Source: a virus. Taken from it: a stretch of 64,000 bases of DNA. Position numbers and translations under genes: made by a program. The notes under the pieces are model-generated. The model was given only the letters and a program-made list of their open reading frames with translations. It was not told where the DNA came from and ran no database searches. The stretch covers positions 77,475 to 141,474 of the IMG/VR virus record IMGVR_UViG_3300001472_000003. The stretch is one strand, 5' to 3'. Position 1 is the first letter of the stretch. Each line of letters starts with the position of its first letter. Of the stretch, positions 26,871-58,503 are shown piece after piece.

Positions 26871-27617
26871 TTATCCTATCATATCTGTCACTGGTAAACT
26901 ATAAGCTGACATCATTTCTTCTTCAAGTCTTCTAATCTCTTCATTAGCATCTGCTAATATTTGTGCACCATTAAATGTTACTCCTCCAGGAAGTTGTAAA
27001 CCTTCAAATTTTGTTAAATTAGAACCCCATTGATATTTAATCTTTGCTGTAGCATAATTTTGCAACCAACGATCTTTCCAAATATCAGCATATACAGATC
27101 CATCAACAACCTGATAAGCTTCAGCTATTATGGTGTCTCCAACATTAACCTTATTCCAATCCATATCAATATGTAATTTATTCATATGCCTGTTATATCT
27201 TAATGGTTGTTTACCAACAAGAAGTTCTTCCATAAATTGTATATTTTGCATGTTCATATAATAAGAGGTTAACATATAATCATGTTTACTTAGATCGTAT
27301 AAATCATTTAATGCGATTTGATATCTGATATTGAATAAATTATTTGTAGATAATCCATCACCAATATCAAATATATTAACTACGCCTATAATATTTTCTG
27401 GTACAGTTAAATACTTATTAGTTATGTCGTCTGATGTAACAGTAAATTTTGCAAATTCTTTTGAAGTTCCATCAAAATGATAATCTGCGTAATATGATAA
27501 TGATTCATCTATCCTATCATCTATTTGGTCATCATCTACATTTATTTCAATAACTGGTTTACCTAATTTACGTAAACAAAATTCAGCGAATGTTGTTTTA
27601 CTTGTTGGTTGTGCCAT
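26871..27617 (-). CDS. 13: Neck protein gp13
   Basis: 248 residues (T4 gp13 309). TFAEFCLRKLGKPVIEINVDDDQIDDRIDESL is the hallmark N-terminal helix pair, and GDTIIAEAYQ with a C-terminal QILADANEEIRRLEEEM helix completes it. It heads the gp13-14-15-16-17 run and is preceded by a terminator whose loop carries a CATAAATA box. Confidence 0.92.
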   Translation of the reverse strand: MAQPTSKTTFAEFCLRKLGKPVIEINVDDDQIDDRIDESLSYYADYHFDGTSKEFAKFTVTSDDITNKYLTVPENIIGVVNIFDIGDGLSTNNLFNIRYQIALNDLYDLSKHDYMLTSYYMNMQNIQFMEELLVGKQPLRYNRHMNKLHIDMDWNKVNVGDTIIAEAYQVVDGSVYADIWKDRWLQNYATAKIKYQWGSNLTKFEGLQLPGGVTFNGAQILADANEEIRRLEEEMMSAYSLPVTDMIG

Positions 27618-27710: not shown

Positions 27711-29627
27711 TTATGCTACAAATATATATGCAGCGCCTTTTGTAGAATTAAATTCATGACTACCTGCTACAGTTGTTTGACCATCTCCTGAAATTTCAAT
27801 ACCTCCCTTATTATAAACAAATCTATTAAGAGAAGCGTGATCACTATTAAATATAGGACCTCCTGTTACTGCCCATGATGTTCCGGTTCTCTCTGCCCAA
27901 TACAGTGCTCCTCTTCGTGTTGGATGTGGATTACCTTGATTAGGAGATGCTATTGCTACAATATTACCGTTATTAGAAATATCTAAAGCCCTGCCAAACT
28001 CTTGATCTTTATGTCTTACTGGCGCGTGGATAATAGCTTGTTCTGTCCATGTAGTACCTGATCTTACAAATATGTATACTTGCCCAGAAGTGTTCGTTGA
28101 ATCAAGATTTGAATCATCTCCACCTGAGGTTGCCGCAGGCCCGTCTTCATAAGGAGCTCCAAAAGCTACTGTACTTCCATCTTGGTCAATAGATACTGCA
28201 AAACCAGCACGATCACTTCCACTTCGATCTGACCCAAGTAATATTGCTTGTTCTGTCCATGCACCTGAATCATATTTATATACATAAACCTTAGATTTAT
28301 CATAAGCTCCGGATACAACATATAAACCGTTACCAGACATCGAAACATCGTGACCAAAATTTGCGCCAGATTCAGCATCTGATGCTGTTATTAAGGTACC
28401 ATTGTCCCATGAACTTCCTGTTCTCTTATGTATTATTGCATACCCAGCTCCAACATTAGATGACATTCCTCCTAGTGCTCCAATTATAAGTTCATCTCCA
28501 GTATCTGACATACCTAGAGAAGTACCATACCTAGTTGGGTTATTGCCACCATGACCAGACCAATTGAATGTAGCTTCATGTGCCCAAGATGATCCAGATT
28601 TAACGTAAACATGCACTCTTCCATTGCCACCACTTCTATAATAAGTTGGTTCTGATATAGCAATTGTTTCACCATTTGATGACATAGCAAATGCTCTTCC
28701 AAATCTACTATTATTTTCAACATTACCCCCATGTGATGGTGAATTAGCTGTTAGTGTTTGTACTAAAGACCATGTAGTGCCTGACCTTTCGTATATATTT
28801 GCAAATCCTTGAGTACTATTACCATTATTATTCTCAGGAGCTCCAACGATTGCTAGGTTACCATTTGTAGAAATTGCACAGGATTCACCAAAAGCTGCTC
28901 CACTAGATAAACCAGTCACTGGTAAAGATACTTGTTCAGATGCTGAGGTCCAAACACTATATGCTACATCTAGAGTCACAGCAGCCGTTCCTATATTAGT
29001 TCCATCTGTTACTGATATTGTTAATGTTCCTCCAGCCAATTCTGATGCTCCTGCTACAACTGTAACAGTATTGTTACCTGTGTGATGAGATATATCCACT
29101 TGAGATGTATTTGTTATATTTGTATTTGAGGTTGTAACAGTTACTGGTGTGCCTTCTGGTTCACTTGTAGTGTAAGTTATGTCAATTGACTCTCCAATTG
29201 TTCCAAAACTATGAGAAGATATACTTGCAGATATAGTTGGTGTTAGATTAATTGAATCGATTGATCTCCATTGTGTAGCTGTTCTGATATATAAATCATT
29301 AGTAGCAGTTACAAATGCATGATCTCCAGCTTGAATGCCAGATGAAGGTAAATCTGATTCATTAGCATATACTGTAACAGCTCCACCCGATAGTGATGTT
29401 AAAGATACGTTTGATGTGGATCCATCTGCTTTATTAAAAACCAATGTTGTTCCACTAACACTAACAGTAGAGACTGATGTATCAGTAGAAGGTACAATTT
29501 GTTCAAATCTAGTATTTAATGCTTGTCTAGTCCATACATTTTTAGAAGATGAATATATAAACTTTGTGTTTTCATGTGTAACTACCTGGCCATCTGATGG
29601 CGTAGTAGGTAAATTTAAGTCAGCCAT
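27711..29627 (-). CDS. FG-GAP beta-propeller tail adhesin (7 blades), module at N-terminus
   Basis: 638 residues. Residues 1-115 hold a module with LPTTPSDGQVVTHENTKFIY..W and a domain ending DLYIRTATQWRSIDS. About 100 residues of Ig-like/cadherin-like sequence follow (PEGTPVTVTTS). From about residue 235 there are seven copies of a 50-60-residue repeat, each with FG/YG, a SxNGxxxxxGAP strand and a V(Y/H)(I/V)xxRSGxxW strand: FG-GAP-type blades enough for one closed propeller. It is the last of four related consecutive genes. A surface-binding tail protein is inferred from repeats and position next to fibre genes. Confidence 0.75.
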   Translation of the reverse strand: MADLNLPTTPSDGQVVTHENTKFIYSSSKNVWTRQALNTRFEQIVPSTDTSVSTVSVSGTTLVFNKADGSTSNVSLTSLSGGAVTVYANESDLPSSGIQAGDHAFVTATNDLYIRTATQWRSIDSINLTPTISASISSHSFGTIGESIDITYTTSEPEGTPVTVTTSNTNITNTSQVDISHHTGNNTVTVVAGASELAGGTLTISVTDGTNIGTAAVTLDVAYSVWTSASEQVSLPVTGLSSGAAFGESCAISTNGNLAIVGAPENNNGNSTQGFANIYERSGTTWSLVQTLTANSPSHGGNVENNSRFGRAFAMSSNGETIAISEPTYYRSGGNGRVHVYVKSGSSWAHEATFNWSGHGGNNPTRYGTSLGMSDTGDELIIGALGGMSSNVGAGYAIIHKRTGSSWDNGTLITASDAESGANFGHDVSMSGNGLYVVSGAYDKSKVYVYKYDSGAWTEQAILLGSDRSGSDRAGFAVSIDQDGSTVAFGAPYEDGPAATSGGDDSNLDSTNTSGQVYIFVRSGTTWTEQAIIHAPVRHKDQEFGRALDISNNGNIVAIASPNQGNPHPTRRGALYWAERTGTSWAVTGGPIFNSDHASLNRFVYNKGGIEISGDGQTTVAGSHEFNSTKGAAYIFVA

Positions 29628-29653
29628 TGCTTTTTATTCCTTTTTATTTCATT

Positions 29654-32600
29654 TTATGTTGTAACAAAAGTATACACTGCACCAGCATCTGTTGTATTAG
29701 TATCTTCACGTGGTGCACCGACTATTACTGTTGATCCATCACCAGATATTTCTGAAGCTGAACCAAATTCGTCATTATTCTCTATATCTGTTGATGTTAA
29801 AGATTTTTGTAGACCCCATCCAGTATCATTAAAAATATAAGCAGCTCCTGAATTATTCATCGTTGTATCTTCTTCGGCAGCACCAAATATCACTGACTTA
29901 CCATCACCACTTAAAGCTATAGCTTGTCCAAAATTATCTCCAAGTGTTGGATTGTCGGGTACAAATTTTCTCAATTGTGTCCACGATGTATCTGTTCTTC
30001 CAAAAGCATATGCCACACCAGCAGTGGCTGATGTAGAATATAAAAGATTTGATCCTATTATTATAATATCACCACTATCATCAATATCAGCAGATGAACC
30101 AAATCCATTATTTTGAGTATCACTATTATCAGAATGTTGAATAGCCGCTTGTTGTGACCAAGTTGTACCACTTCTAACCCATACAAAACTCTTACCTTTT
30201 AACGAATCATGTTTCATAGAACCTACAACAACAGTATCACCATCTTCATCAATAGCTACAGAACAACCAAATCTATCTTGACTAGTTATTCCAGCTGATT
30301 GAATTTTTTGTTGTTGACTCCATGTACTTCCTGTCCTAACAAAAATAAAAGCCGTTCCAGCAAATGTACCATTATCATCATCGTATGGTGCACCTACAAT
30401 AGCATAATTAGCATCTCCAGAAATTCGTACACAGTTATCACCAGAAGAACCACCTCCACTCATCTGATCATGAGCTACTCCATCAGAAGCTAATAATCTC
30501 GCTTGTTGAGACCAAGATGTACCAGATCTATAATAAATGTAAGCTGCACCTTGCTGTTCTGAACTAACACCTTTAGCTTGAGGTGATCCTACTATAACAT
30601 AATTACCATCTTTAGATATATGAACACCTTTACCAAAATACCAAACATCATTATTTCCAGTATGATCGTCAGGAAGTAATTTTGCTTGTTGAGTCCAATT
30701 TGTTCCTGATCTAGTAAAAATATAAGCAGCACCAGGAGCGCCATTGTTACTAGATCCTCCTTTAAACCAAGCACCTACAACTAATGTATCTCCTGCATCG
30801 TTTAATGAAATAGACTGTCCAAATTTGTCACCATTTGCTATATCATTTGATTGTATCATTGCTTGCTCAACCCAAGTTGTGCCAGATTTAATATAAATGT
30901 ATACTTTTCCTCTATTACTTCCACCTGTATCTTCCAATGGTGCACCTACTGCTTTATAAGTACCATCATTTGAAATAGCAACAGAGTAACCATAATCATC
31001 ATCATTTTGAGGATCTGAAGCTTTTAACATTTGTAATTGATCGGTTGCTGCAGCCCAACCACTACTTTTTTGATAAACATATGCTCTGCCAGTTTGAACA
31101 GAATTAGGAGTACTATAGTGCCTTGAACCAGTTGCAATTATAGTACCATCATTTGATAAACTAACTCCACCATCCCCTAACTGTCTAATATTAGGAGGAC
31201 TACTATTATAACCAACTGGATCAGATGGTATTATTTTAGCTTGTTGAGACCATGTACTTCCTGATCTTGTATAAACAAATACAGCTCCCCCTTTAGCATT
31301 AGATCCATCGACAGGTGTTTTTGAATCATTATTTATGTCTATAACAGCTAAAGATGCTCCATCTGTCGATAAAGATATTCCTTTACCATAACCATGATTA
31401 CCTCTACCAATAGCATTGCCGCCGGATACAGTAAAATTAGTTTGTTCCGACCAAGTGGTTCCTGTTCTTGTATATACTAAGATTCTATTTTGTGAAGAAT
31501 GTGTTGCAACTAAATAACTACCATCCCCATTAAGAGCTAAGGAAGCAGCATATCCTTCACCACTCATATTTGAAGGCATCATTTTTTGTTGAAATGTAAA
31601 ATTATTTGAACCATCATTTTTATAAATAAATATTTCTTTTGATTGTTGCGCTCCAACTGCTATATAATTATTATCATCACTTATATCAAAATCAATAGCA
31701 TATTGCATATCATTTACAATTTCTCCACCTGTTGGGGCTAATACTGCATGTTGTGACCAATTAGCACCAGATCTTGTAAAGATATAAAGAACTCCTGTAT
31801 CCATTAAGTTTGATGGGTTGTCATCAGAGTAAGCACCAGCTAATGCAATAGTTCCATCAGCTGACATCACAACCTGTCTACCAAAACCTCTATTGTCACT
31901 TGGGTGACCACCAGTTCTGGACATCATTGTCAAATAATTCCATGTTGTTCCAATTCTTTTCCAAAAATGTACATGACCTCTATCGTGTTCTAGAGATCCT
32001 ATTATTGCATAATTCCCATCCTCACTTAAATCAACAGCTACACCAAAATTATCATTAGATCTTGCATTAAATGGTCTTAAAATTTTAGCTTGTTGGACTC
32101 CAGTAGACCAATCAAATGCGAATTGTATAGTCATTGTTAATGTATCAGCAATAGTGTTGACACCATCTGTGGCTGTTATAGTAATTGTCTCGGTTGTGTT
32201 CTGTACTGGTGTATCAAATGTTAAAGTATTATTTGCTTGATGTACGGTTATACTTGCATTGGATGTACTTGATGCTGTTATTGTGTAAGGAGTATCTTCT
32301 GGTTCATTTACTGTATAACTGACATCAACTGAATCACTTGAACCCATTGATATACTAGAGACACCTAAGGATAAAGAAGGTGATAGATTGACTGTTGCAA
32401 TCTTATACCAACCGGATCCATCAGTGATAAATAATGAATCAGTATCAGTTACATATACTTGAGTGCCTGATACTAAATTAGTTATAGGCAATTGAGAAGC
32501 ACTTGCATAATTTGTTAGTATATTACCTGCAAAAGCGGCTAAGCTAACATTAGCATGTGTACTATCATCTTTTTGTATTACTAAAGTATTGCCACTAATA

Positions 32601-32770
32601 GACATTGAAGATACTCCGACACTTTTGTTTTCAAAATCGGATATTTGAGAAGAAGACATCGTCGATACATGTCTCCATTTATTTTTATCACTGTTATACC
32701 GCATTGCTTTACCTTGAGCAATAAATAACTCATTATTGCTTGGATTGCTTGGAAAATCTATTACTGGCAT
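29654..32770 (-). CDS. FG-GAP beta-propeller tail adhesin (14 blades)
   Basis: 1038 residues. The N-terminal module FPSNPSNNELFIAQGKAMRY..W and a domain ending LFITDGSGWYKIATV are shared with its neighbours. An Ig-like stretch (PEDTPYTITASS) follows. I count 14 FG-GAP-type repeats from about residue 225 to the end, exactly two seven-bladed propellers in tandem, typically FGxSVxIxxDGxxxxVGAP...GxxYIFxRSGTxWxQQ. It differs from the 27711 gene mainly by the second propeller. Probable host-surface adhesin on the distal tail. Confidence 0.75.
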   Translation of the reverse strand: MPVIDFPSNPSNNELFIAQGKAMRYNSDKNKWRHVSTMSSSQISDFENKSVGVSSMSISGNTLVIQKDDSTHANVSLAAFAGNILTNYASASQLPITNLVSGTQVYVTDTDSLFITDGSGWYKIATVNLSPSLSLGVSSISMGSSDSVDVSYTVNEPEDTPYTITASSTSNASITVHQANNTLTFDTPVQNTTETITITATDGVNTIADTLTMTIQFAFDWSTGVQQAKILRPFNARSNDNFGVAVDLSEDGNYAIIGSLEHDRGHVHFWKRIGTTWNYLTMMSRTGGHPSDNRGFGRQVVMSADGTIALAGAYSDDNPSNLMDTGVLYIFTRSGANWSQHAVLAPTGGEIVNDMQYAIDFDISDDNNYIAVGAQQSKEIFIYKNDGSNNFTFQQKMMPSNMSGEGYAASLALNGDGSYLVATHSSQNRILVYTRTGTTWSEQTNFTVSGGNAIGRGNHGYGKGISLSTDGASLAVIDINNDSKTPVDGSNAKGGAVFVYTRSGSTWSQQAKIIPSDPVGYNSSPPNIRQLGDGGVSLSNDGTIIATGSRHYSTPNSVQTGRAYVYQKSSGWAAATDQLQMLKASDPQNDDDYGYSVAISNDGTYKAVGAPLEDTGGSNRGKVYIYIKSGTTWVEQAMIQSNDIANGDKFGQSISLNDAGDTLVVGAWFKGGSSNNGAPGAAYIFTRSGTNWTQQAKLLPDDHTGNNDVWYFGKGVHISKDGNYVIVGSPQAKGVSSEQQGAAYIYYRSGTSWSQQARLLASDGVAHDQMSGGGSSGDNCVRISGDANYAIVGAPYDDDNGTFAGTAFIFVRTGSTWSQQQKIQSAGITSQDRFGCSVAIDEDGDTVVVGSMKHDSLKGKSFVWVRSGTTWSQQAAIQHSDNSDTQNNGFGSSADIDDSGDIIIIGSNLLYSTSATAGVAYAFGRTDTSWTQLRKFVPDNPTLGDNFGQAIALSGDGKSVIFGAAEEDTTMNNSGAAYIFNDTGWGLQKSLTSTDIENNDEFGSASEISGDGSTVIVGAPREDTNTTDAGAVYTFVTT

Positions 32771-32786
32771 TTATTTTATTCCTTAT

Positions 32787-34457
32787 TTAAACTGGTTGTG
32801 AATTTGCTACTTTAAACCATCCTGATCCATCTGTAACATATAAATATCCGGTATCTAAGGCTATAGCTTGATCACCCGATTGTAAACTTGAGAATGGGAA
32901 TATAGAGGCATTGGCGTATGTTTCCGTTCTACCTGCAAATGCATCTACACTTACAGATACACCATCTATAACTAAATCATTATCTGATTCAAGTTGTGCG
33001 TTCTCAACACCTCTTGCTCTTTTTCTTGTTGATGATACGCCATCTAAATCTGAAGCTTTTTCTGGTCTCCATCTTCCTTTTCCAGCATTCCATTTGAAAC
33101 GTCTTCCTTCATGAGTGTGAACAGTTCCATCAGCTAAATTCGATGGTATAGTTCCAGTCGGGACCCAATATTCTACTGCACCTTCGTTAGAAAAGGCACC
33201 CCAGGCTGTTAGAATTAAATGTTTACCATCTGAAGATAATGCATTAGCATAGTTACCTGTCAGGCCTGGTGTCACAGCTTGTTTTTTCAAAAGAGACCAT
33301 GTTGATCCTGATCTTTCGAATGTATACCAATACTTATTTTCTCCAGCATTTCCAGATAGTATTAAAAGGGATCCATCATAATTAAATGACATTGACCTAC
33401 CTATTGTAGCACCATCATCAGATGCACCATCTGGTCCATTGACTACTGCTTGTTGATCCCACACATTTGTACTACTATTCCATTTTAATATTGCTACTCT
33501 ACCAGCATAGTCATCTGAGTCATGATGTCTGAAATATATACTTAAATAATTGCCATCTTTACTCATTCCTAAAGCCTGGCCGTCGGTTGCATATTGGCCT
33601 GATTGATCGTAGGTTTGGACAGCACTAATGTTCCATAAATTTGAACTGGTATTGTATCTCCCAGTAAAAATTTTAACTACTTTATCTGTAGTATTATTAC
33701 GCTGACCTGAATACTGGCTATCATTTAGAAGACAAAATTTTTCTCCAGCACCATCTAATACAATATTGCCCTTTATTCCAAAATTACCTCCCGTAGTAGG
33801 TGTATTTAATTGGCCAAAGTATGCCCATGTTGATCCAGTTTTATGGAAAATATAATTTAATGAACGCCCATTGGCAGAATTTTTTCCTGCTGCTATACAT
33901 CGAGTGCCATCCGCATTTAATACAATTCCATAATATCCAACAGCACCATTAGTTTGCCCACCGTTTCCAAAAACATTAGTCCAAGTTGATCCTGTTCTTT
34001 CAAATATTTCTATCCGTCCACCGTCCGGATGACCATAATTACCACCTGTTACAGCAATCGTCTCTCCAGCTTCATCAATAGCTACTGATCTATGATGTGG
34101 GTTATCATCATATGAACCAAAAGTGTCTGGACCATTACCATATTGACTGTAAACAGCATGATTAGTATTACTAGTTAATGTTGCTTGTGTTGTAAACGTA
34201 TTACCTGTTCTAGTTAGAACATATGGAAATCCACCAGAAGCGTGAGTATGAGCCACTGCACCAGGAGCTCTATTTCCTACTACTATATAATCGCCATTCG
34301 CTGAAACCGCAGAACCACCAATTCCTGATTTTTCTCCAGCCCCAGATTGAACTGTAAATTTAGCATCTCTGACAAAAGATGCATTTACATTAGCCCCTAC
34401 AGAAGATGAACTGAATGATCCTGTAATTGCTGTTGATGTTGGTAATGAAAGTGCCAT
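32787..34457 (-). CDS. FG-GAP beta-propeller tail adhesin (7 blades), module at C-terminus
   Basis: 556 residues. A short leader (LSLPTSTAITGSFSSSSVG) is followed by seven FG-GAP-like repeats to about residue 435. The C-terminus carries the module IPSNLADGTVHTHEGRRFKW..W and a final domain ending LYVTDGSGWFKVANSQ. That final 70-residue domain is almost identical to the end of the next paralog (34474-36198), so the pair is a recent duplication or is being homogenised. 16 bp separate it from each neighbour. Confidence 0.72.
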   Translation of the reverse strand: MALSLPTSTAITGSFSSSSVGANVNASFVRDAKFTVQSGAGEKSGIGGSAVSANGDYIVVGNRAPGAVAHTHASGGFPYVLTRTGNTFTTQATLTSNTNHAVYSQYGNGPDTFGSYDDNPHHRSVAIDEAGETIAVTGGNYGHPDGGRIEIFERTGSTWTNVFGNGGQTNGAVGYYGIVLNADGTRCIAAGKNSANGRSLNYIFHKTGSTWAYFGQLNTPTTGGNFGIKGNIVLDGAGEKFCLLNDSQYSGQRNNTTDKVVKIFTGRYNTSSNLWNISAVQTYDQSGQYATDGQALGMSKDGNYLSIYFRHHDSDDYAGRVAILKWNSSTNVWDQQAVVNGPDGASDDGATIGRSMSFNYDGSLLILSGNAGENKYWYTFERSGSTWSLLKKQAVTPGLTGNYANALSSDGKHLILTAWGAFSNEGAVEYWVPTGTIPSNLADGTVHTHEGRRFKWNAGKGRWRPEKASDLDGVSSTRKRARGVENAQLESDNDLVIDGVSVSVDAFAGRTETYANASIFPFSSLQSGDQAIALDTGYLYVTDGSGWFKVANSQPV

Positions 34458-34473
34458 GTTTTTTATTCCTTAT

Positions 34474-36198
34474 TTAAACTAGTTGTGAGTTTGCTACCTT
34501 GAACCATCCTGATCCATCAGTAACATATAAATATCCTGTATCTAATGCAATTGCTTGATCCCCAGATTGTAGACTAGAGAATGGGAATATAGAAGCATTA
34601 GCATATGTTTCTGTTCTGCCAGCAAAGGCATCTATACTTACTGTAACACCATCTATATTTAAATCTAAATCTGATTCAAGCTGAGCGTTCTGAACGCCTC
34701 TTGATCTTTTTCTTGATGAAGATATTCCATCTAAATCAGATGCTTTTGCTGGTCTCCATCTACCTTTAGCAGCATTATATTTGAATTTTCTACCTTGATG
34801 TGTATGTATGTCTCCATCTGCCAGAGAAGATGCAATTTCTCCTGTTGGCTTAAAATATTCTACTGATCCTTGGTTAATTTCATTACCTAATCCACCTGCC
34901 AGGCCATAACCTGTACTAGAATATCTTGCATTTGGAGCGGAGACTAATATGTGCTTGCCATCTGAAGATAATTCTATATCTCCTATTGAATTTAAACCAT
35001 TTACATGAGTATGTTTTGCTTTAAATGTCCATGTAGAACCAGTTCTTTCATAAATATACCATGCCTGTTGAGTTTGAGTTCTACCATTATGGTTTGGATT
35101 TCCTTGTGAACCATTAGTATTACCTATTGCTACCAATACTGATCCATCATAATTAAGTCTAAAATGTCTACCTATATACATACCATTATTTGTAGTAGCT
35201 CCACCTGCAGTAGCATTATCGATAACTGATTCTTCGACATAAGCGTTGCTACCATTCCATTTAAATACATGGAATCGTCCAGTGAAATCTACTGTTCCAT
35301 CTCGAAATGATACTATAACATATATACCATCGTTGCTTATTTCTATGTGATATGCTTGACTTTCAGCAGAAGAGTGTCCAGTCTGGTCAATAATTTGAAG
35401 ATGACTTTGCCATGCTGATCCATCATAGTAAAAAGTTTGTAGTCTTGCTCTCTTTCCTATATTAAAATCATTATCGTTCCGTTGTAAATCTAAACATGCA
35501 ATACGTGTGCCATCATTGTTTATAGATATACTTCCTATACCAACTGCGTATCCTCCAGGACCAATTCCAGACCCACCATTAGTTCCAGTATAAAGGTCTG
35601 ATTGCTGACTCCAAGAAGAACCTGATTTGGTCCACATAGCAAGTCTTTGATCATTACCACAACTAGCAATAATTGTATTTCCATCTCCGGATATAGCAAC
35701 ACCATGTTCACCTAGTCTTTGTCCACCATCATCTAGGAATGCATTGTGAGACCAAGATGCTCCTGAACGAGTCCATACATCTATAGCACCATCAGTTGTT
35801 CCTGCGGAACAACCTACAATAGCTGTTTCACCCGCTTCATCTATATCTACACCTTTCTTTTGGACTTCTGCAAAATCACCATACCGATCATTAGCACCCA
35901 TACGAAACATATATGATGGTATAAAGGTTGTATCTATAGTCCAGACATCTCCAGTCTTTTTATATATTATAGGTCGTCCAGTACATCCATTACCAGTATT
36001 TGCTCTATTTGCAATTATTGCATAGTCGCCATTTGCTGACATACGCATTCCATGACCTTGAAAGTCATTATTTCCAACACTTGATTGTAAATTAGAATGT
36101 CGACCGGCGCCAACTATTAAAGGTGTTAAGTTAGCAGTGTTTGTTGTTGTGACGAAAGACCCGACTACGTTTGCTGCGCTTGGTAATGAAAGTGCCAT
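34474..36198 (-). CDS. FG-GAP beta-propeller tail adhesin (7 blades), first of four
   Basis: 574 residues, same plan as the 32787 gene: leader LSLPSAANVVGSFVTT, seven blades (for example GVDIDEAGETAIVGCS and GVAISGDGNTIIASC), then the DGDIHTHQGRKFKY..W module and the domain ending LYVTDGSGWFKVANSQ. It is the promoter-proximal gene of the propeller cluster and follows a terminator and an exact TATAAATA late box. The blades have diverged from the 32787 gene far more than the C-terminal domain, consistent with selection for different receptors. Confidence 0.72.
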   Translation of the reverse strand: MALSLPSAANVVGSFVTTTNTANLTPLIVGAGRHSNLQSSVGNNDFQGHGMRMSANGDYAIIANRANTGNGCTGRPIIYKKTGDVWTIDTTFIPSYMFRMGANDRYGDFAEVQKKGVDIDEAGETAIVGCSAGTTDGAIDVWTRSGASWSHNAFLDDGGQRLGEHGVAISGDGNTIIASCGNDQRLAMWTKSGSSWSQQSDLYTGTNGGSGIGPGGYAVGIGSISINNDGTRIACLDLQRNDNDFNIGKRARLQTFYYDGSAWQSHLQIIDQTGHSSAESQAYHIEISNDGIYVIVSFRDGTVDFTGRFHVFKWNGSNAYVEESVIDNATAGGATTNNGMYIGRHFRLNYDGSVLVAIGNTNGSQGNPNHNGRTQTQQAWYIYERTGSTWTFKAKHTHVNGLNSIGDIELSSDGKHILVSAPNARYSSTGYGLAGGLGNEINQGSVEYFKPTGEIASSLADGDIHTHQGRKFKYNAAKGRWRPAKASDLDGISSSRKRSRGVQNAQLESDLDLNIDGVTVSIDAFAGRTETYANASIFPFSSLQSGDQAIALDTGYLYVTDGSGWFKVANSQLV

Positions 36199-36217
36199 GT
36201 TTATATTTCCTTAAAAT

Positions 36218-36225
36218 TATTTATA
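36218..36225 (-). promoter_or_regulatory. Late promoter TATAAATA for the propeller cluster
   Basis: Exact TATAAATA on the minus strand, about 20-27 bp before the ATG at 36198 and directly after the terminator at 36227-36261. No other such box lies in the gaps between the four propeller genes, so it probably serves all of them. Confidence 0.6.
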
Positions 36226-36226
36226 T

Positions 36227-36261
36227 TAAAATAGGTAGAGATCGCATGGACCCCTACCTAT
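36227..36261 (-). terminator. Terminator after the repeat fibre gene
   Basis: Eight-base-pair stem ATAGGTAG/CTACCTAT (36231-36238 with 36254-36261) with a 15-base loop, followed on the minus strand by four T. It lies 13 bp past the stop of the 36274 gene. Confidence 0.75.
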
Positions 36262-36273
36262 AATATTTTTTTA

Positions 36274-37917
36274 TTAAGCAGAAACGTTTGTACGCTTAAT
36301 CTTAATAGTACCACTATTATTGGCTGGTGTAGCTAATAATGATAAGGTGCCTGCTGATAATGATGCATCTAATGCCATTAATGAAGCATTAGTTATTAAT
36401 GTACCATATTCAGTTAAGTAAACATCTGTACCATCTTGTGTTACGTTAACCATTGTAAAATGCTTATCTGTTCCTGATGTACATTCAACAATATACTGAG
36501 CTGCACTATATGTTGCAATTGCAAATGAATCAACAGTTATTTGATTTGTTGATGAAACAGTTGTTGTTGCTGTTGTAGGCAATTTGTCTAATGTTACATC
36601 AAATGTTGAAGCATCATCTCTAGTAAATGTAAGAGTATTGTTACTTGATGTCCATCCTGCTCCTTGTGTTGATGTATTTGCTCTTAGAGCTACATCAAAC
36701 GTAGAAGCATCTGCTCTTGTAATAGTTAAAGTACTATTGGCTGAGGCAAAGGCTGCACTTGATGAAGATGTGTTAGCAGGTGTTGGAACAACAGCTACAA
36801 AAGCACCATCATAGTAGATGTAAAGATCAGCGTCATCACTGTCATACCATAAATCACCTTCTAGTGGTGATGATGGAGCAGTATTAGAAACTGTAGTTGC
36901 AGATGTTATAATTGACATATCAAATGTAGAACCATCTGCTCTTGTCATTGTTAATGTACTATTAGCAACTGTATATGCACCAGATGATGTAGATGTATTA
37001 GCAATAAGGGTTGTGTTTGCAACGCCTGTCATGACAACATCAAATGTACTTGCATCATCTCTTGTTATTGTTAAAGTGTTATTAGCAACAGTATATGCAC
37101 CAGAAGCAGCTGATGTATTAGCAATATTTGTTAAATCAGTACCTGTTGCAATATTAATATAGGTAGTACCATCTTCGGTTACTTGCCATTTGTCTGTTGA
37201 TTCATTCCATCTTAATGCTACGTTTGCGCTTGATCCACGCTCGATTTCAATACCAGCATTTAATGAAGGAGTTCCAGTTTGACCTGAAGCTAAAGTAATG
37301 ATAGCATCATTTACAACTAAATTGTTTGTATCAATATTTGTTGTTGTTCCCTGAACAGTTAAGTTACCGGAAATTGTAAGATCATCAATTGTTAGATCAG
37401 ACATTGCTACATCAAATGTACTTGCATCATCTCTTGTAAATACAAATGTACCGTTAGATCCTGTAAATGCAGCACTTGATACAGATGTGTTTGCTCTTAA
37501 AGCTACATCTGTATCTGTTCCATCATCTCTTGTAAATGTAAGAGTTGAGTTAGCAGCAGTAAAAGCAGCACTTGCTAAAGATGTATTAGCTCTTAAAGCT
37601 ACATCTAAAGTTGTACTATCAGCTCTTGTTAATGTTAATGTACTATTAGCAGCAGCAAAAGCAGCGGATTGTGTTTGTGATCCAATGTCTACAGCTGTTG
37701 TAGTTGAATCTGCTCTAGTAAATACAATCGTATTGTTACCGGCTGTAAAAGCAGCAGATGCTAATGATGTGTTAGAAGCAGATGCAACTAATTGATCATC
37801 AACGTATTTTTTAGTGGCTGCATCAGTATTTGCAGTCGGTGTAGCAAGATTGATAATCTTGTTAGCATTTGAGTTAACGCCATACTGGGCGAGAAATTCT
37901 TTATTAATGGTCGCCAT
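36274..37917 (-). CDS. Tail fibre protein with ~30-residue tandem repeats
   Basis: 547 residues. The N-terminal NKIINLATPTANTDAATKKYVDDQL is a common phage-fibre element that leads into a trimeric coiled coil. It is followed by at least nine copies of a repeat of the form ANTSxSSAAFTxANSTLTFTRDDASTFDVAL, in two blocks separated by a spacer with LTVQGTTTNIDTNNLVVNDAIITL. The C-terminal 95 residues (QYIVECTSGTDKHFTMVNV..IKIKRTNVSA) resemble the end of the 38090 protein. Function: fibre shaft with a distal domain, inferred from composition. Upstream are two exact TATAAATA boxes. Confidence 0.75.
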   Translation of the reverse strand: MATINKEFLAQYGVNSNANKIINLATPTANTDAATKKYVDDQLVASASNTSLASAAFTAGNNTIVFTRADSTTTAVDIGSQTQSAAFAAANSTLTLTRADSTTLDVALRANTSLASAAFTAANSTLTFTRDDGTDTDVALRANTSVSSAAFTGSNGTFVFTRDDASTFDVAMSDLTIDDLTISGNLTVQGTTTNIDTNNLVVNDAIITLASGQTGTPSLNAGIEIERGSSANVALRWNESTDKWQVTEDGTTYINIATGTDLTNIANTSAASGAYTVANNTLTITRDDASTFDVVMTGVANTTLIANTSTSSGAYTVANSTLTMTRADGSTFDMSIITSATTVSNTAPSSPLEGDLWYDSDDADLYIYYDGAFVAVVPTPANTSSSSAAFASANSTLTITRADASTFDVALRANTSTQGAGWTSSNNTLTFTRDDASTFDVTLDKLPTTATTTVSSTNQITVDSFAIATYSAAQYIVECTSGTDKHFTMVNVTQDGTDVYLTEYGTLITNASLMALDASLSAGTLSLLATPANNSGTIKIKRTNVSA

Positions 37918-41659: not shown

Positions 41660-42471
41660 TAATAATTGCCACCATCAATATCATCTGCAATTGGTGCACC
41701 ATTAACATCGTATTGTAATATCTGTCCTTGGCTTCCTGTTGTAAATGCCACTGTTGTTGTATTAGCTCCTGACATTACACCTCTTTCAACCAATTCTCTA
41801 ATCCCCGTACCACCATCTTTTACTTCTAAAGGATTCGAAAGACTATTAATTGTAACATTATTTAATGTGCCATCTGTAATATTTGTATTAGATATATTAC
41901 TATCGGTTAATGAAGCATTGCTTATTACAGCATCTGATAATCCTACACCTGATAGCCCCAATTGTCCTGTATACACAGCACCAGATAAAAATATGCCCTT
42001 TCCCGATGTTACAGATGTAGGCAAATTAGAACCTATAAAATTTAAAACACCTGACTGATAGTCAAAATACCATTCATCATTGTTGCCAGAACCAGTCTCA
42101 AATAACTGTGTTCCTGATGATGCTGGATTTGCTGCTGCTGATGACGCAGAATATACTTTTAATTGATATGTGGAACCAAAAACTGGAGGTATCCAATTTA
42201 CTATGCTTGTAGTCCATGTTCTTCTGGTTGTAGAGGTTAAATCTTCTGTTGTTTGTATTGTTGTATATACTTTGACAATACTTGTATTAGATGTAGGAAT
42301 AACATTAGGAATTGATGCGGCATCACTCCAAATAGCTAATGGATCAATAATAGGTTTAGATACAAATACTTCGTTAGGTGCTTTTTTAAGATCATTAGTA
42401 TCAGTTTTTACTCTACCAAAACCTATTTTTTTCCAAAGTAAATCAACTTTTTGTGAATCTGATATGGTCAT
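41659..42471 (-). CDS. Virion structural protein, marine myovirus fibre-connector type
   Basis: 270 residues. The N-terminal KIGFGRVKTDTNDLKKAPNEVFVSKP and IWSDAASIP pattern occurs at the start of many cyanophage and pelagiphage structural proteins. WYFDYQSGVLNFIGSNLP is a recurrent beta element, and the end has short repeats (NASLTDSNISNTNITDGTLNN) of a pentapeptide-like beta-helix. It shares its last base with the start of the next gene upstream. Probably a tail or fibre component. Confidence 0.68.
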   Translation of the reverse strand: MTISDSQKVDLLWKKIGFGRVKTDTNDLKKAPNEVFVSKPIIDPLAIWSDAASIPNVIPTSNTSIVKVYTTIQTTEDLTSTTRRTWTTSIVNWIPPVFGSTYQLKVYSASSAAANPASSGTQLFETGSGNNDEWYFDYQSGVLNFIGSNLPTSVTSGKGIFLSGAVYTGQLGLSGVGLSDAVISNASLTDSNISNTNITDGTLNNVTINSLSNPLEVKDGGTGIRELVERGVMSGANTTTVAFTTGSQGQILQYDVNGAPIADDIDGGNY

Positions 42472-52311: not shown

Positions 52312-55300
52312 TTATACAGATAGTGCTAGTGCTCTATAATCATTTACTTTAGGAATAATATTACTACTAGTAGTTGTTAATACAATTTTTATTGCAAATG
52401 ATTTATATTCATCATATTTAACACCATTATCATCAAAATAAGAAGCTACAAATTCATTTTGAGGGTCTTTAAATATAGCATGATCATGAGATAAAATTTC
52501 TAACTGTGTTCCTGCTTTAGTGAATCCAAGTTCCTGGTCAACAATAATTACTGATGTGTTAACTGAGGCAACTCTAGTTATTTGATAATCTGTATTAGAA
52601 TCAGAATTAACAATTTTCAATAATGTTCCTGTTCCAACAAGATTGGCAGATCCATTAGAGAATCCAGGAGTATTACCAGATACACTTATTGTTGATACAC
52701 CATTTGATGTAGATCCAACACCAACAAGAGGTGTTGTATTGGGACTATTTGGAAGATCATATTCATATTCTATAACATCAAATTCATTTGATGTTGAACT
52801 AAAAACGTCATTACCTAAATTTGTTAATTTAGTCCATTTTTTATTATTAAATTCCTGATTATCAGCTGAATTTAATCCTTTTAAAAATACATGTACATCT
52901 GTTCCTGCAGGTCTATATGCAGATACAAATATTTTCAAATCTTCAGCATCTAATCCTTCTTTTAAATTTACAGTTCTAGAAATATATTTACAAACAGATG
53001 ACCCATTAGCATATGCTTCATTACTAATTGTATTATTAATGTCTGATTTAAATGCCAATAAACTTGTTGATTGGGTATCTAATGCAGGAGATAGTGTAAT
53101 TTTACCAGTTGATAAATTCATCGTAGTTGTTAATGTTTTATTGCCTGAATTGTCAACAATTTCATTACTTTTACTATATACTGCTGGTTCAAACGATAAT
53201 ATTCTGTTATTATCATTAAATTTCATATCTACTATTGTTGTGTTAGATACACTGTCTGCAGCTGTTAATGTAGATGTACCATTATTTGTAATATTACCAG
53301 CAAATGATAATCTATACATTAAAGGTTGGAAATAACTTACAATTTGATTATCAACCGTTGTTATAACTGCATTAGCATTTGAATCAGCTGCGATTAATGT
53401 ATCACTATTTGCAAATAAATATGTTGAATTTGATGCATTACTATTAGTTAAATGTAAAACACCATCATTATTGTTGTAGTAACTTACGCTACCTGAAGGT
53501 GTTATTTGGTAATTAGCTATAGTATTAGAAAATAATGGTTGCCCCTTTATTGAAAGTTGTGTATTATTCGCTATACTGTTTACAGATAATACTTGAGATC
53601 TAATAGACCCATTAGAATCCGCACCGACAACCACAATTCTATCACCAACACTAAAATCCGTTGTGAATGTAGTACTTGTTCCAACTAAATTACTACTTGT
53701 TGCGGACATACTTATCGTTTGTGCACTAACATTAGCTCCAGATTTATATACTAATTCACCATTAAAAAATGATCCACTTATATCTTGGATCTTTAAAAAT
53801 TCTATATCAGGGTTATTGAATATTGCTGTTCCAGATGTAGAAGAAAAATCACATCTATATATGTTTACTTTTAAATTTTCATCTTGTGTAGCTGTCCATG
53901 TTCTATTATTTGTTGAAAGAAATAAAACACCATCAAAGCTATCTTGTGTTATATTATCTGATCCTGTTGTTAAATCAGATTGTCCAATTTTTGACACCCA
54001 TAATTTATAACTTGGGTTATTGCCATCTGGTTTTATGATTACAGCATATTCATTACCTTGCCTCATAAACAATGGAGAGTCAAATGTTACAGTAGTGGAT
54101 ATAGATCCATTATTACTTGTGCTAACTTCAGCTGAAGTTAAATGTTTTATTCCAAAAGGTAATATTTCTTGAGCAGGTGTTCCATTAAATACTGTTCTCA
54201 TTTCTATAGTAACACCTTCAACTGCATCTTTTTCTGCAAAAAATAAATCTATTTTAGGTACAAAGATACCTTCTTCATCTTGTGAAATACTAGGTCCAAT
54301 ATAAAATGTTTGAGCTAGTGGGTCATCTACACCGGCACCTGGATCACCTCCATTACCTACACCACCAGTTTCTCCACCTCCTCCACCATCGTCACCACCA
54401 TCATCTTGTTGCTGTTGCCATGTCACCTGTCTACTTCTACGGGATTCTACTGATCTTGATGTCTCAATTGTTGTGTTTGACCATCCTATTCTATTAAAAG
54501 TTGGTTGTCTTGTACTAATAGACGAACTACCTTTTTCGATAGAAAAGTTATATGCATTATATGCGGTTAAGCTTATTGATGTTGCATCTTTCAATGAGGT
54601 AGAAAATACTTCATCAGCTACTGTTAATATTCTCTCACCTACAAAGAATGTTTGTGATGGAATTCTGAAGCTACCTGCAACAACACCAGCACCATCTGCG
54701 GTTATTGTTCCTCCAAATTCACCTATTTCTTCTATATCATTTTCTGTTATATCTGCACCAGTTCCTGTAATTATAGCAGCTCTGCAATGTTGATCTACAG
54801 CTGTGTCATCAAAATATATGTAGTGTCTAGTATTAGGTCTTAAACCGTGTACTACAAATTTTACAATTCTTGATCTCATATATGGTTGCATAGCCATATC
54901 AGTCATATATTCGCCAACTTCTACTGTTGATATATTACTATCTGATATATTCAGAAGTTGTCTTGTTTCTCTAATTGTTCTATCTCTTATAACTTCAAAT
55001 GTATTTGTGGTCTCAGTTCCGCCACTATTGCCATTATTCCAACCGGTAGTTGTTGAATTCAATAAAACATCTCGTGAAACATCATTTATAATATCAAATC
55101 TTCTTTGGTTTATTACGTCTATTTTATTTAATTCTCCAATTAAACTTTCAAATCCAGATGTCATATCAATTACTACATTATTAACTTTTTCTGGGTTTAT
55201 AGTAGTATCATAGAAATTATCATAGTTTGGAAATAATGTCATTGTGCCATTATATCGATGAAATAACTCAGTAGCATTTCTGGATTTTGTAGCATATGGA

Positions 55301-58300
55301 TTAGATAATACTAAATTAGCAGAATAATCATTTGTTATAAGATCACCTGTCTTTGTAACATTTGAACTCAATGAACTATTAAATGATAAATCTAAATTTA
55401 CTTGTTCAACTTTTGGAATTAATTGAGCTGCAGCTTTATCAACACCTGCTTTATATTCTAAGCTATTAATATTACCAATACTTAAATCTTTAAATGCATC
55501 TACCAATATACCATTTTTAAATCTATCTAATCCATTAGAACCCTTTATTATTAAATCGGTGGTTTGTTTTTCTAATAAATTTAAAGAAGTATAATATTCA
55601 AGTCTTGATAATCTTTCTTCCATATCACCAATATCAGACATTGTATATCTTCTAATTTGCCTTACACTTGTTTTAATACCATATGATGGTCGTTTACTTG
55701 TAATAGCATCTGTTATACTTAATGATGGATATACTGGCACAGATACTGTAGCTATTATCATACCTGTATCTGGTTTTGTTGGAGGAACAGGAGATTCTGA
55801 TGCTAATCCTTTAATAACACCTATTTGTCCAGTAGATTCAATATGCAGCATATCAATCCTAGAAAGATAATGTTTAAAATCAGCTACAAATTCTCTTCCA
55901 GGAGCTACAAATTTGTCATTGCTAAATGATATTGTATTTGATGGATTTACTGTCGCTGATACAATTGTATTCGCATATACTCCAGTATTAGCTGTCATAG
56001 GTCTAAAATCTATTGAGTCCCTTAAATCATATTGTTTGCCTGATGTAGGAGAATTAAATAAAGGAATGTCTTCAGTCCTAAATTGGGTATTATCAATACT
56101 ACCTGAATCTGTCGGAGCATATGAATCTATTGAAAAAAATCCGGAGCCTCCACCAGTACTATCTTTTTGAAATGCATTAAAGTGAACCAATAACTTATCT
56201 GAAGCAGATATTGTTAAAGATGAACTTGATTTTTGTTCTAATGTAGATATACCATAATATGCATCTTTTTGACCTGGATTTATAGCAAAATGAGAAGTTA
56301 CATCTGTTTCCGTATTTGCATATGTAGAACCTTTATATACGGCTATTAATTGTAAAGCATCTGGCACACCCAGAGACCATGGACCAGATGTGCTATTTAC
56401 ATTATTAGAAGTATCAATTTTTGTAAACACTTCTCTTAAATTTTTATTTACTTGAACAGCACTGTCTATTTTGACAGGATATATTACCGCAGCATTAATA
56501 GTTGATGATAATGACTCATCTAAATTAATTGTCATTTTTTGTTGGCTTTGTGATATTACAACATTTGCAGATCTACTAGACAATGGTATTGCGGTATCTT
56601 TTGGAAAATTTCTATAATGTGCAGCATTATTAAGAGTAGAACCAAATGCAGATTCGAGAACTATATGAGTCGTGTTTGTTATAGCAGCAATTCTAGAAGA
56701 TGATGATTCTCCTGATATTGATATATAGTCACCTACATTATATTCTGATACAAAATTAGTTCCATTACCTTCGATTGTAGTATTGGAATGTGAGGTTGCT
56801 GTGCCAGTTCGCGCTACAGTATTAGCTCCTGTCAATGATGTAACAACAATTTGGCGTTCTTGTACACTGTTAAGTGTTGAATCATCTGTAAACGGAAATT
56901 TGCTATTTCCAGATAATACTATTTCTAAAGAACCGTTACTTGCAAATGTTATAGCATCATTCATATCTCTGTGTATAAATGTTGTATTATTAATACCTTG
57001 AGAATTGCGTATAGTTGATACTCCGGTAGATCCTAGCGGATGTACACTAACTGCTAAACCACTATCTTTTAATACAGCTTTATTTGATTCCAGTAATATA
57101 TCAGCTACAAAATCATAGGTAGAGGTAAAATGGATTGATCTAACACTACTAAATTGTTTTCCTGCAGTCATTGATATATCAAACAAATATACTCTATATG
57201 TTGCTGTGGGAGTGCCAGGAACACCTTCATGATTCTCTACTGCTCTAACTCTAGCAGTCCCTATTGAATTAGGCAACGATGATGGTGCTTCTGCATATTC
57301 ACTAGTTATACCTTGATAAGCCGCTGAATGTAATGTTATTTGACTTCCTGATGTATAATTTAACGAACCAAGCAATTCATTTACTATTATATAATTGCCA
57401 AAATTTGGAGTTATTGTTTGATTTAATTTATCTACTTGAGTTGTAGCTTTTTCTACAGGAATTCTTGTTGCGTCATGTAATTGAACTCTATATCCATCAA
57501 CATATGCCAGACCTGCACCAACAACCATACTTGTATGTGTTGTATTACTGACAATATTCTCTGATCTTATAGCAAAAGGTTTAACAACATAATCACCACT
57601 TTCATCATTAGTTCTTGATGCCAACTCTTGACCTAATCTATTATATTGTGTAGTTTGATTTCTAGTTATGGTTTGTCCACTTTCAAAATCAACAAGAGAA
57701 AAGAAGTTATTAGCAGTAGTTTTTTGTGCTTTAGTTTTAACAACTAATTTAGGTTCTAATTTTAATCTAAATGCGCCTGGAGCATTTTCATTATTAAATC
57801 CTTGGGCATTATCAAGTAATGATGTATCAATAGAATTATTAACTACACTTTCTACTACCTCAAAGCCAACTGATAATTCATGAGCATTGGCAGTATATTT
57901 AGATACAATTATATCTTGTGGTGCGACGGATACAAAATGCCCTTTTTGGAATATTATACCATCATTAATTTTAAACATATATGAGTTACCGATTGCACTA
58001 TGAGTAGAATTAGCTACAGTAACATTAGCTATAGGATCATTATTAGCATACAAAACCTGAAGTACTTCATTATTAGCAAATTTCTTTTCGCCACCAGTTC
58101 CAGTATTTCGATATTTTATATAAAGAGTATTTAAATCAGGTGTTTGTGACTCAAAACCAGATGATTCATTTATAATAGTCGCGGTTAAATTAGATGCTGC
58201 AGATACTAACACCTGGTTAGCATAGTTAGATACTATAGTGTTTTGTCCATCAGCTTGTAAATCATTTATTTTAATATAATCAATGCCTTTGTCAAAATTA

Positions 58301-58503
58301 AATGTACAACCCTTTACAATAGTACCGTCAATTAAAATATTAGCACCAAATTTTTCTATTTGATCTTGCAATATTGTTTGTAATTGGGTAAGTTCCCTTG
58401 CTTGTACAGCTACGCCCGGTCTAAATAAAACTTTATGAAAATTTTTAGTTTGATCGAAATCTTCATAATACGGACTAATGTTTAAATCTGTTTGTATTGG
58501 CAT
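52312..58503 (-). CDS. Giant baseplate/tail structural protein (DUF4815-like)
   Basis: 2063 residues, by far the largest gene. The N-terminus PYYEDFDQTKNFHKVLFRPGVAVQARELTQLQ with GANILIDGTIVKG is the DUF4815 pattern of phage baseplate-anchored proteins. Regions such as DLRDSIDFRPMT and RLEYYTSLNLLEKQT are found in relatives from marine T4-like phages. Near residue 1370 a hinge of Gln, Asp and Gly (QQQDDGGDDGGGGGETGG) divides it, followed by DPLAQTFYI and VPKIDLFFAEKDAVEGVTI, a second conserved half. It lies directly after the gp8-like gene, so a peripheral baseplate or fibre-attachment role is likely. Confidence 0.78.
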   Translation of the reverse strand: MPIQTDLNISPYYEDFDQTKNFHKVLFRPGVAVQARELTQLQTILQDQIEKFGANILIDGTIVKGCTFNFDKGIDYIKINDLQADGQNTIVSNYANQVLVSAASNLTATIINESSGFESQTPDLNTLYIKYRNTGTGGEKKFANNEVLQVLYANNDPIANVTVANSTHSAIGNSYMFKINDGIIFQKGHFVSVAPQDIIVSKYTANAHELSVGFEVVESVVNNSIDTSLLDNAQGFNNENAPGAFRLKLEPKLVVKTKAQKTTANNFFSLVDFESGQTITRNQTTQYNRLGQELASRTNDESGDYVVKPFAIRSENIVSNTTHTSMVVGAGLAYVDGYRVQLHDATRIPVEKATTQVDKLNQTITPNFGNYIIVNELLGSLNYTSGSQITLHSAAYQGITSEYAEAPSSLPNSIGTARVRAVENHEGVPGTPTATYRVYLFDISMTAGKQFSSVRSIHFTSTYDFVADILLESNKAVLKDSGLAVSVHPLGSTGVSTIRNSQGINNTTFIHRDMNDAITFASNGSLEIVLSGNSKFPFTDDSTLNSVQERQIVVTSLTGANTVARTGTATSHSNTTIEGNGTNFVSEYNVGDYISISGESSSSRIAAITNTTHIVLESAFGSTLNNAAHYRNFPKDTAIPLSSRSANVVISQSQQKMTINLDESLSSTINAAVIYPVKIDSAVQVNKNLREVFTKIDTSNNVNSTSGPWSLGVPDALQLIAVYKGSTYANTETDVTSHFAINPGQKDAYYGISTLEQKSSSSLTISASDKLLVHFNAFQKDSTGGGSGFFSIDSYAPTDSGSIDNTQFRTEDIPLFNSPTSGKQYDLRDSIDFRPMTANTGVYANTIVSATVNPSNTISFSNDKFVAPGREFVADFKHYLSRIDMLHIESTGQIGVIKGLASESPVPPTKPDTGMIIATVSVPVYPSLSITDAITSKRPSYGIKTSVRQIRRYTMSDIGDMEERLSRLEYYTSLNLLEKQTTDLIIKGSNGLDRFKNGILVDAFKDLSIGNINSLEYKAGVDKAAAQLIPKVEQVNLDLSFNSSLSSNVTKTGDLITNDYSANLVLSNPYATKSRNATELFHRYNGTMTLFPNYDNFYDTTINPEKVNNVVIDMTSGFESLIGELNKIDVINQRRFDIINDVSRDVLLNSTTTGWNNGNSGGTETTNTFEVIRDRTIRETRQLLNISDSNISTVEVGEYMTDMAMQPYMRSRIVKFVVHGLRPNTRHYIYFDDTAVDQHCRAAIITGTGADITENDIEEIGEFGGTITADGAGVVAGSFRIPSQTFFVGERILTVADEVFSTSLKDATSISLTAYNAYNFSIEKGSSSISTRQPTFNRIGWSNTTIETSRSVESRRSRQVTWQQQQDDGGDDGGGGGETGGVGNGGDPGAGVDDPLAQTFYIGPSISQDEEGIFVPKIDLFFAEKDAVEGVTIEMRTVFNGTPAQEILPFGIKHLTSAEVSTSNNGSISTTVTFDSPLFMRQGNEYAVIIKPDGNNPSYKLWVSKIGQSDLTTGSDNITQDSFDGVLFLSTNNRTWTATQDENLKVNIYRCDFSSTSGTAIFNNPDIEFLKIQDISGSFFNGELVYKSGANVSAQTISMSATSSNLVGTSTTFTTDFSVGDRIVVVGADSNGSIRSQVLSVNSIANNTQLSIKGQPLFSNTIANYQITPSGSVSYYNNNDGVLHLTNSNASNSTYLFANSDTLIAADSNANAVITTVDNQIVSYFQPLMYRLSFAGNITNNGTSTLTAADSVSNTTIVDMKFNDNNRILSFEPAVYSKSNEIVDNSGNKTLTTTMNLSTGKITLSPALDTQSTSLLAFKSDINNTISNEAYANGSSVCKYISRTVNLKEGLDAEDLKIFVSAYRPAGTDVHVFLKGLNSADNQEFNNKKWTKLTNLGNDVFSSTSNEFDVIEYEYDLPNSPNTTPLVGVGSTSNGVSTISVSGNTPGFSNGSANLVGTGTLLKIVNSDSNTDYQITRVASVNTSVIIVDQELGFTKAGTQLEILSHDHAIFKDPQNEFVASYFDDNGVKYDEYKSFAIKIVLTTTSSNIIPKVNDYRALALSV

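Follow-up and report, generated by a model that had tools for sequence, protein, structure and literature searches.

Beta-propeller heads on shared adapter domains as probable receptor-binding proteins of an uncultured T4-like phage

In T4-like marine phages, a host recognition cluster has been described between VrlC and the neck gene (PMC7029224). In the pelagimyophages and cyanomyophages of that study the cluster is non-syntenic and filled with tail-fibre and carbohydrate-binding genes, and its divergence is read as gradual in the pair that was compared. It is also already known, from work on metaviromic islands, that host-recognition genes are replaced between near-identical marine phages (PMC3909814). 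Those islands carry C1q, tail-fibre and lectin-like genes, propellers are absent from the paper's table of frequent genes, and the tail fibres combine a conserved N-terminal part with a variable C-terminal part. Beta-propellers have precedents among phage receptor binders in phi11 Gp45 and PRD1 P2, with PhiKZ gp131C as a proposal (PMC4901313). Here we describe a locus that resembles each of these systems in part.

The DNA analysed, hereafter the window, is a 64,000-nucleotide stretch covering positions 77475-141474 of a 149.5 kb virus record (IMG/VR IMGVR_UViG_3300001472_000003). Its source is a contractile-tailed phage of the T4 superfamily that is known only from metagenomes. Stenotrophomonas phage DLP6 is the closest isolate by both the neck protein (61%) and the major capsid protein (74%), the Sinorhizobium phages phiN3 and phiM12 are also near by these two proteins, and high-ranking capsid matches include Methylophilales and pelagiphage capsids. 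On the strength of these relatives, rather than of sample data, we call the phage presumably marine. Its structural genes are read from the minus strand, with baseplate wedge and VrlC followed by tail-fibre-like genes, then A-B-C-D, and finally neck genes and terminase. Genes A to D are transcribed in that order, with intergenic gaps of 16 (A/B), 16 (B/C) and 26 nt (C/D), and all four open reading frames stand where a preliminary description of this DNA had placed them. The island and its parts are as follows.

52312..58503, minus strand: VrlC homologue, upstream border of the island
36274..37917, minus strand: repetitive tail-fibre-like protein (phrog_9729), adjoining the cluster
34474..36198, minus strand: gene A, 574 aa, N-terminal seven-bladed propeller and C-terminal class-3 adapter
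34846..36057, minus strand: propeller of A, residues 48-451, from the blade HMM and AlphaFold2
34477..34830, minus strand: class-3 adapter of A, last 118 residues
32787..34457, minus strand: gene B, 556 aa, N-terminal seven-bladed propeller (blade 4 weak) and C-terminal class-3 adapter
32790..33143, minus strand: class-3 adapter of B, last 118 residues
29654..32770, minus strand: gene C, 1038 aa, class-1 adapter, Ig-like domain and 14 blades
32375..32770, minus strand: class-1 adapter of C, residues 1-132
32096..32374, minus strand: Ig-like domain of C, residues 133-225, a weak Pfam fn3_6 match that is Ig-like by strand pattern
30881..32095, minus strand: first propeller of C, blades 1-7, with a presumed boundary to the second propeller
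29657..30880, minus strand: second propeller of C, blades 8-14, from the blade HMM and AlphaFold2
27711..29627, minus strand: gene D, 638 aa, class-2 adapter, Ig-like domain and seven-bladed propeller
29235..29627, minus strand: class-2 adapter of D, residues 1-131
27714..28967, minus strand: propeller of D, residues 221-638, from the blade HMM
26871..27617, minus strand: neck protein, downstream border of the island

A blade HMM, together with AlphaFold2 models of A and C, gives 7, 7, 14 and 7 blades in A, B, C and D, confirming the preliminary description of four consecutive propeller genes with these counts. Two of the proteins pass the gathering cut-off of Pfam FG-GAP_2 (PF14312; 23 bits), C with 266 bits (E=1e-80) and D with 88 bits (E=5e-25); B reaches 11 bits and A has no match. 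The blade HMM, built from 21 hand-delimited repeats of C and D only, gives 108 bits for A and about 74 bits for B, and shuffled controls peak at 8.6 bits for A (246 of 300 scored) and 14.6 bits for B (254 of 300 scored). Blade 4 of B is very weak, appearing with 1 bit and only after one retraining of the HMM. A and B are very divergent, being recognised only through the model built on C and D and by their fold.

Structure prediction, which the preliminary description had proposed as a check, yields propellers for both A and C. The models are of modest confidence, with pTM values of 0.65 (A) and 0.49 (C) from alignments three sequences deep; they cover these two among the four proteins and do not resolve the adapter region. 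In the model of A, six sheets have four strands and a seventh has three, and residues 18-23 form an additional strand at the N-terminus. In that of C, 13 sheets are four-stranded and the fourteenth is three-stranded, and there is one N-terminal strand, at residues 225-231, whose sequence, VQQAKIL, resembles the outer strand of other blades, WxQQAKL. This predicted arrangement reads as a velcro closure, in which an N-terminal outer strand, six full repeats and one repeat without its own outer strand would complete the ring, comparable to the N-terminal strand that closes the propeller of phi11 Gp45. The same frame fits twice in C, where the assignment of strands to the two halves is provisional. 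Foldseek matches A to seven-bladed WD40 and lactonase propellers, and its best PDB match for C is Pwp2, a tandem-propeller WD protein, which fits a 7+7 organization; the 14 blades of C are thus read as two seven-bladed propellers. A sequence search of solved structures with C returned nothing at E<=1. Within the modest confidence of the models, sheet counts in A and C and the Foldseek matches indicate closed seven-bladed propellers and, with the blade HMM, support blade numbers in multiples of seven.

Expansion by whole-propeller duplication, as proposed in the preliminary description, found no support: pairing each blade i of C with blade i+7 was no better than random (permutation p=0.50), and three rotations scored above it. 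Either C was therefore duplicated too long ago for detection, or it is a fusion of two propellers; the test would have little power against an old duplication. The likeness to eukaryotic integrins extends only to the fold: A-G contain no strict match to the integrin Ca2+ motif DxDxDGxxD, and the family matched is FG-GAP_2.

Three features had been missed: the adapter domains, a second gene cluster, and head exchange between near-identical phages. Each of A-D carries an adapter of ~120-132 aa, which forms the C-terminus of A and B; in C and D it is at the N-terminus and precedes an Ig-like domain. The adapter is common to these four genes, to genes E-H elsewhere in the genome and to genes of a sister phage, and it falls into three classes. 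Class 1 comprises C, E, F and sister genes at 75-91% identity, class 2 comprises D, G, H and sister genes at 54-92%, and class 3 comprises A, B and sister genes at 82-92%. Between the classes that we compared, adapter identity is about 28-37%. The heads share about 22-36%, with exceptions in D and G and their sister counterparts (D/D' and G/G'). These adapter and head identities display the combination of conserved module and variable part that characterizes phage receptor-binding proteins, and the conserved adapter would be the attachment module. One class-3 adapter of the sister phage stands free, as a 125-aa open reading frame beginning with MANLNLP; A and B begin with the similar MALSLP, and their propeller may thus be an insertion after the adapter's first strand. 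A tblastn search of 50,697 phage records detected no relatives of the adapter.

Because A-D lie between VrlC and the neck gene, they occupy what is defined as the host recognition cluster in T4-like phages. The same place in phiN3 holds a tail fibre and its assembly chaperone, and in related phage contigs it is rich in tail-fibre, tail-fibre-assembly, LamG and S74 (endosialidase-chaperone) proteins; the blade HMM found no credible propeller in this slot in 80 related contigs. In contrast to the cluster of pelagimyophages and cyanomyophages, the island here holds propeller genes on shared adapters. PHROGs gave A-D no match to a named tail, tail-fibre or receptor-binding family at a meaningful E; the sole tail match, of C to a major-tail family, is at chance level (E=0.56). 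Location in a tail-fibre and host-recognition island is supported, and the earlier statement that the propellers sit on a phage tail is only suggested by that position. Elsewhere in the island, a 907-aa protein (window 42471-45194) combines a PKD domain with an N-terminal similarity to the major tropism determinant (Mtd_N) that stays below threshold.

A-D are, in our view, probably receptor-binding proteins of the virion that consist of adapters and exchangeable propeller heads swapped by recombination. We infer that they are present in the virion, attach through the adapter and bind receptors by the propeller. The adapter, in one of its three classes, would dock at a constant position on the tail or baseplate of the virion, and a seven-bladed head (two in C) would bind a glycan or protein of the host surface. 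Ig-like domains are frequent in capsid decoration proteins, and the propellers could instead decorate the capsid or tail and make the phage adhere to surfaces other than receptors, such as particles or mucus-like polymers, thereby influencing encounter rate rather than host choice. Such a role recalls the FG-GAP protein of cyanophage S-TIM5, which is annotated as virion structural yet sits outside the neck-fibre module, but A-D lie within the VrlC-neck island beside tail-fibre-like genes, and we regard decoration as improbable.

The four genes are present as first described, but they are not the whole set. Four more adapter genes, E-H, lie side by side at record positions 28389-37901 (locus L095), about 70 kb from A-D and outside the structural module.

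Gene E, second cluster: 656 aa, propeller repeats, FG-GAP_2 70 bits
Gene F, second cluster: 689 aa, propeller repeats, FG-GAP_2 29 bits
Gene G, second cluster: 693 aa, propeller repeats, Ig domain
Gene H, second cluster: 1107 aa, LamG head (lectin fold)

The blade HMM identified seven repeats in E and in F, several of them weak, and five in G, whose repeat spacing suggests seven blades. With this cluster, the genome probably encodes eight propellers on seven propeller proteins, in addition to the LamG-headed H. Since at least eight adapter proteins are present in two clusters, several heads are probably displayed at once or kept as a reserve to be drawn upon. A separate cluster outside the structural module is also what might be expected if the proteins were not part of the virion and acted at the surface of the infected cell, for example against superinfection, or were secreted. 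This seems very unlikely to us, as no N-terminal signal peptide is apparent by eye in A-D, the adapter is shared, and operon spacing is tight within the structural module. Directly downstream of the second cluster (L095:7828-8349) is a cell-wall-hydrolase-like open reading frame with a signal-like N-terminus, SleB-like by eye.

The LamG head of H also bears on whether the heads hold or cut. Depolymerases are common among phage surface proteins, and the propellers might be virion-borne enzymes that break down a polymer of the host surface instead of holding it, as glycan hydrolases or lyases or in a lactonase-like manner. The Foldseek matches do include a lactonase-type propeller for A and a xyloglucan-degrading one for C, but no enzyme family rises above its Pfam cut-off in A-D. 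Heads on the same adapter also diverge down to ~30% identity, and a LamG lectin fold serves as one alternative head; this agrees better with binding than with a single conserved activity. We judge the enzymatic role to be unlikely.

Evidence for exchangeable heads comes from the sister phage, a very close relative. It consists of three contigs from one metagenome (L002, L096 and L098), on which the whole comparison rests; L002 and L096 share a terminal overlap of 91 bp at 99%. In IMG/VR, relatives of A, C and D were found only on contigs of one metagenome. DNA of the sister matches that of the source at 96.5% over 8.7 kb, stopping at window position 36215, just upstream of A, and identity picks up again at 29654, by the start of D, from where it is 97.6% across the neck and terminase genes. 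Protein identity is 100% for TerL and the neck proteins, 98-99% for the tail genes upstream and 95% for the conserved D.

29654..36215, no strand assigned: A-B-C block exchanged in the sister phage, between flanks of 96.5-97.6% DNA identity

Within this block the sister adapters are 82-91% identical to those of A-C, whereas the heads are 28-36% identical. It contains a free adapter, a B-like gene, a C-like gene whose head differs by combining FG-GAP with LamG-like and SGL-type parts, and an extra class-1 gene with a new propeller. Because the adapters of the swapped block are less alike than its flanks, the cassettes probably arrived with their own adapters from other lineages. This is replacement between otherwise near-identical genomes, as in metaviromic islands, where host-recognition genes likewise distinguish uncultured phages. 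The entire A-C block has been exchanged here between flanks of ~97%, in contrast to the gradual divergence described for the pelagimyophage and cyanomyophage cluster, and in A and B it is the N-terminal part that varies, unlike in the tail fibres of metaviromic islands. In the second cluster, G and G' share 93% of the head and 90% of the Ig domain but only 60% of the adapter, which places a break between adapter and head.

These comparisons support a set of alternative adhesin-like heads, a possibility raised in the preliminary description, and suggest that the phage may change what it grips by swapping them. Recombination at adapter/head boundaries would replace heads, so that near-identical phages would differ in their binding target. 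A diversity-generating retroelement of the Mtd-like kind is not indicated as a source of head diversity; the 149.5 kb record, which may be incomplete, yielded no RVT_1 match and hence no reverse transcriptase. A more elaborate version of this reading, a combinatorial multivalent system, is less likely than not. It would have three socket classes on one virion, at least 8 parallel receptor specificities and boundary recombination without a diversity-generating retroelement, with propellers, tandem propellers, LamG lectins and propellers within propellers as its interchangeable heads.

In the C-like sister protein (L002:11069-13840, continuing in L096:1-687), LamG-like and SGL/YVTN-type segments are inserted after the fifth FG-GAP blade. 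A 914-aa sister protein (L098:7231-9975) has YVTN/SLTTPYDIS-type repeats that appear nested after the first FG-GAP blade and is possibly a propeller within a propeller. The protein at 36274-37917, with its repeated modules of NTS..SAAF..ANSTLTxTRxDxSTFDVAL, is highly conserved in the sister, just outside the swapped block.

The phi11 and PRD1 proteins resemble our reading in using a propeller as the receptor-binding domain, but they are five-bladed, have other architectures and are single genes. PhiKZ gp131C (PDB 4GBF; PMC4901313) is closer, being a seven-bladed propeller at the baseplate periphery of a contractile-tailed phage and a speculated receptor binder, although our PDB search, made with C, detected no sequence relation, and it is one propeller protein rather than a set of exchangeable heads. 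FG-GAP-type propellers with 6-7 repeats detected also occur in other tailed phages, namely Vibrio phage nt-1 and S-TIM5 (seven each), Sinorhizobium phage Phosso and the uncultured phage UFOVP1367. These lack the adapter, share 24-32% identity over part of the propeller, and form no comparable multi-gene set on adapters; the jumbo phage Phosso does have two adjacent propeller genes (L100:7896-10304), annotated as hypothetical. A literature search, limited to one library, found no paper joining FG-GAP, phage, tail fiber and propeller.

If our reading is correct, an uncultured T4-like phage can change its receptor specificity through propeller and lectin heads on a few fixed adapters. The defined set of homologous heads, seven-bladed, 14-bladed and LamG, permits direct comparison of binding, and the adapter signature could reveal such proteins in phages where they are now called hypothetical. 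Synechococcus phage S-MbCM6 (L099, record 50779-71847) encodes a virion structural protein of about 7000 aa that adjoins baseplate wedge genes and contains a weak FG-GAP-like run.
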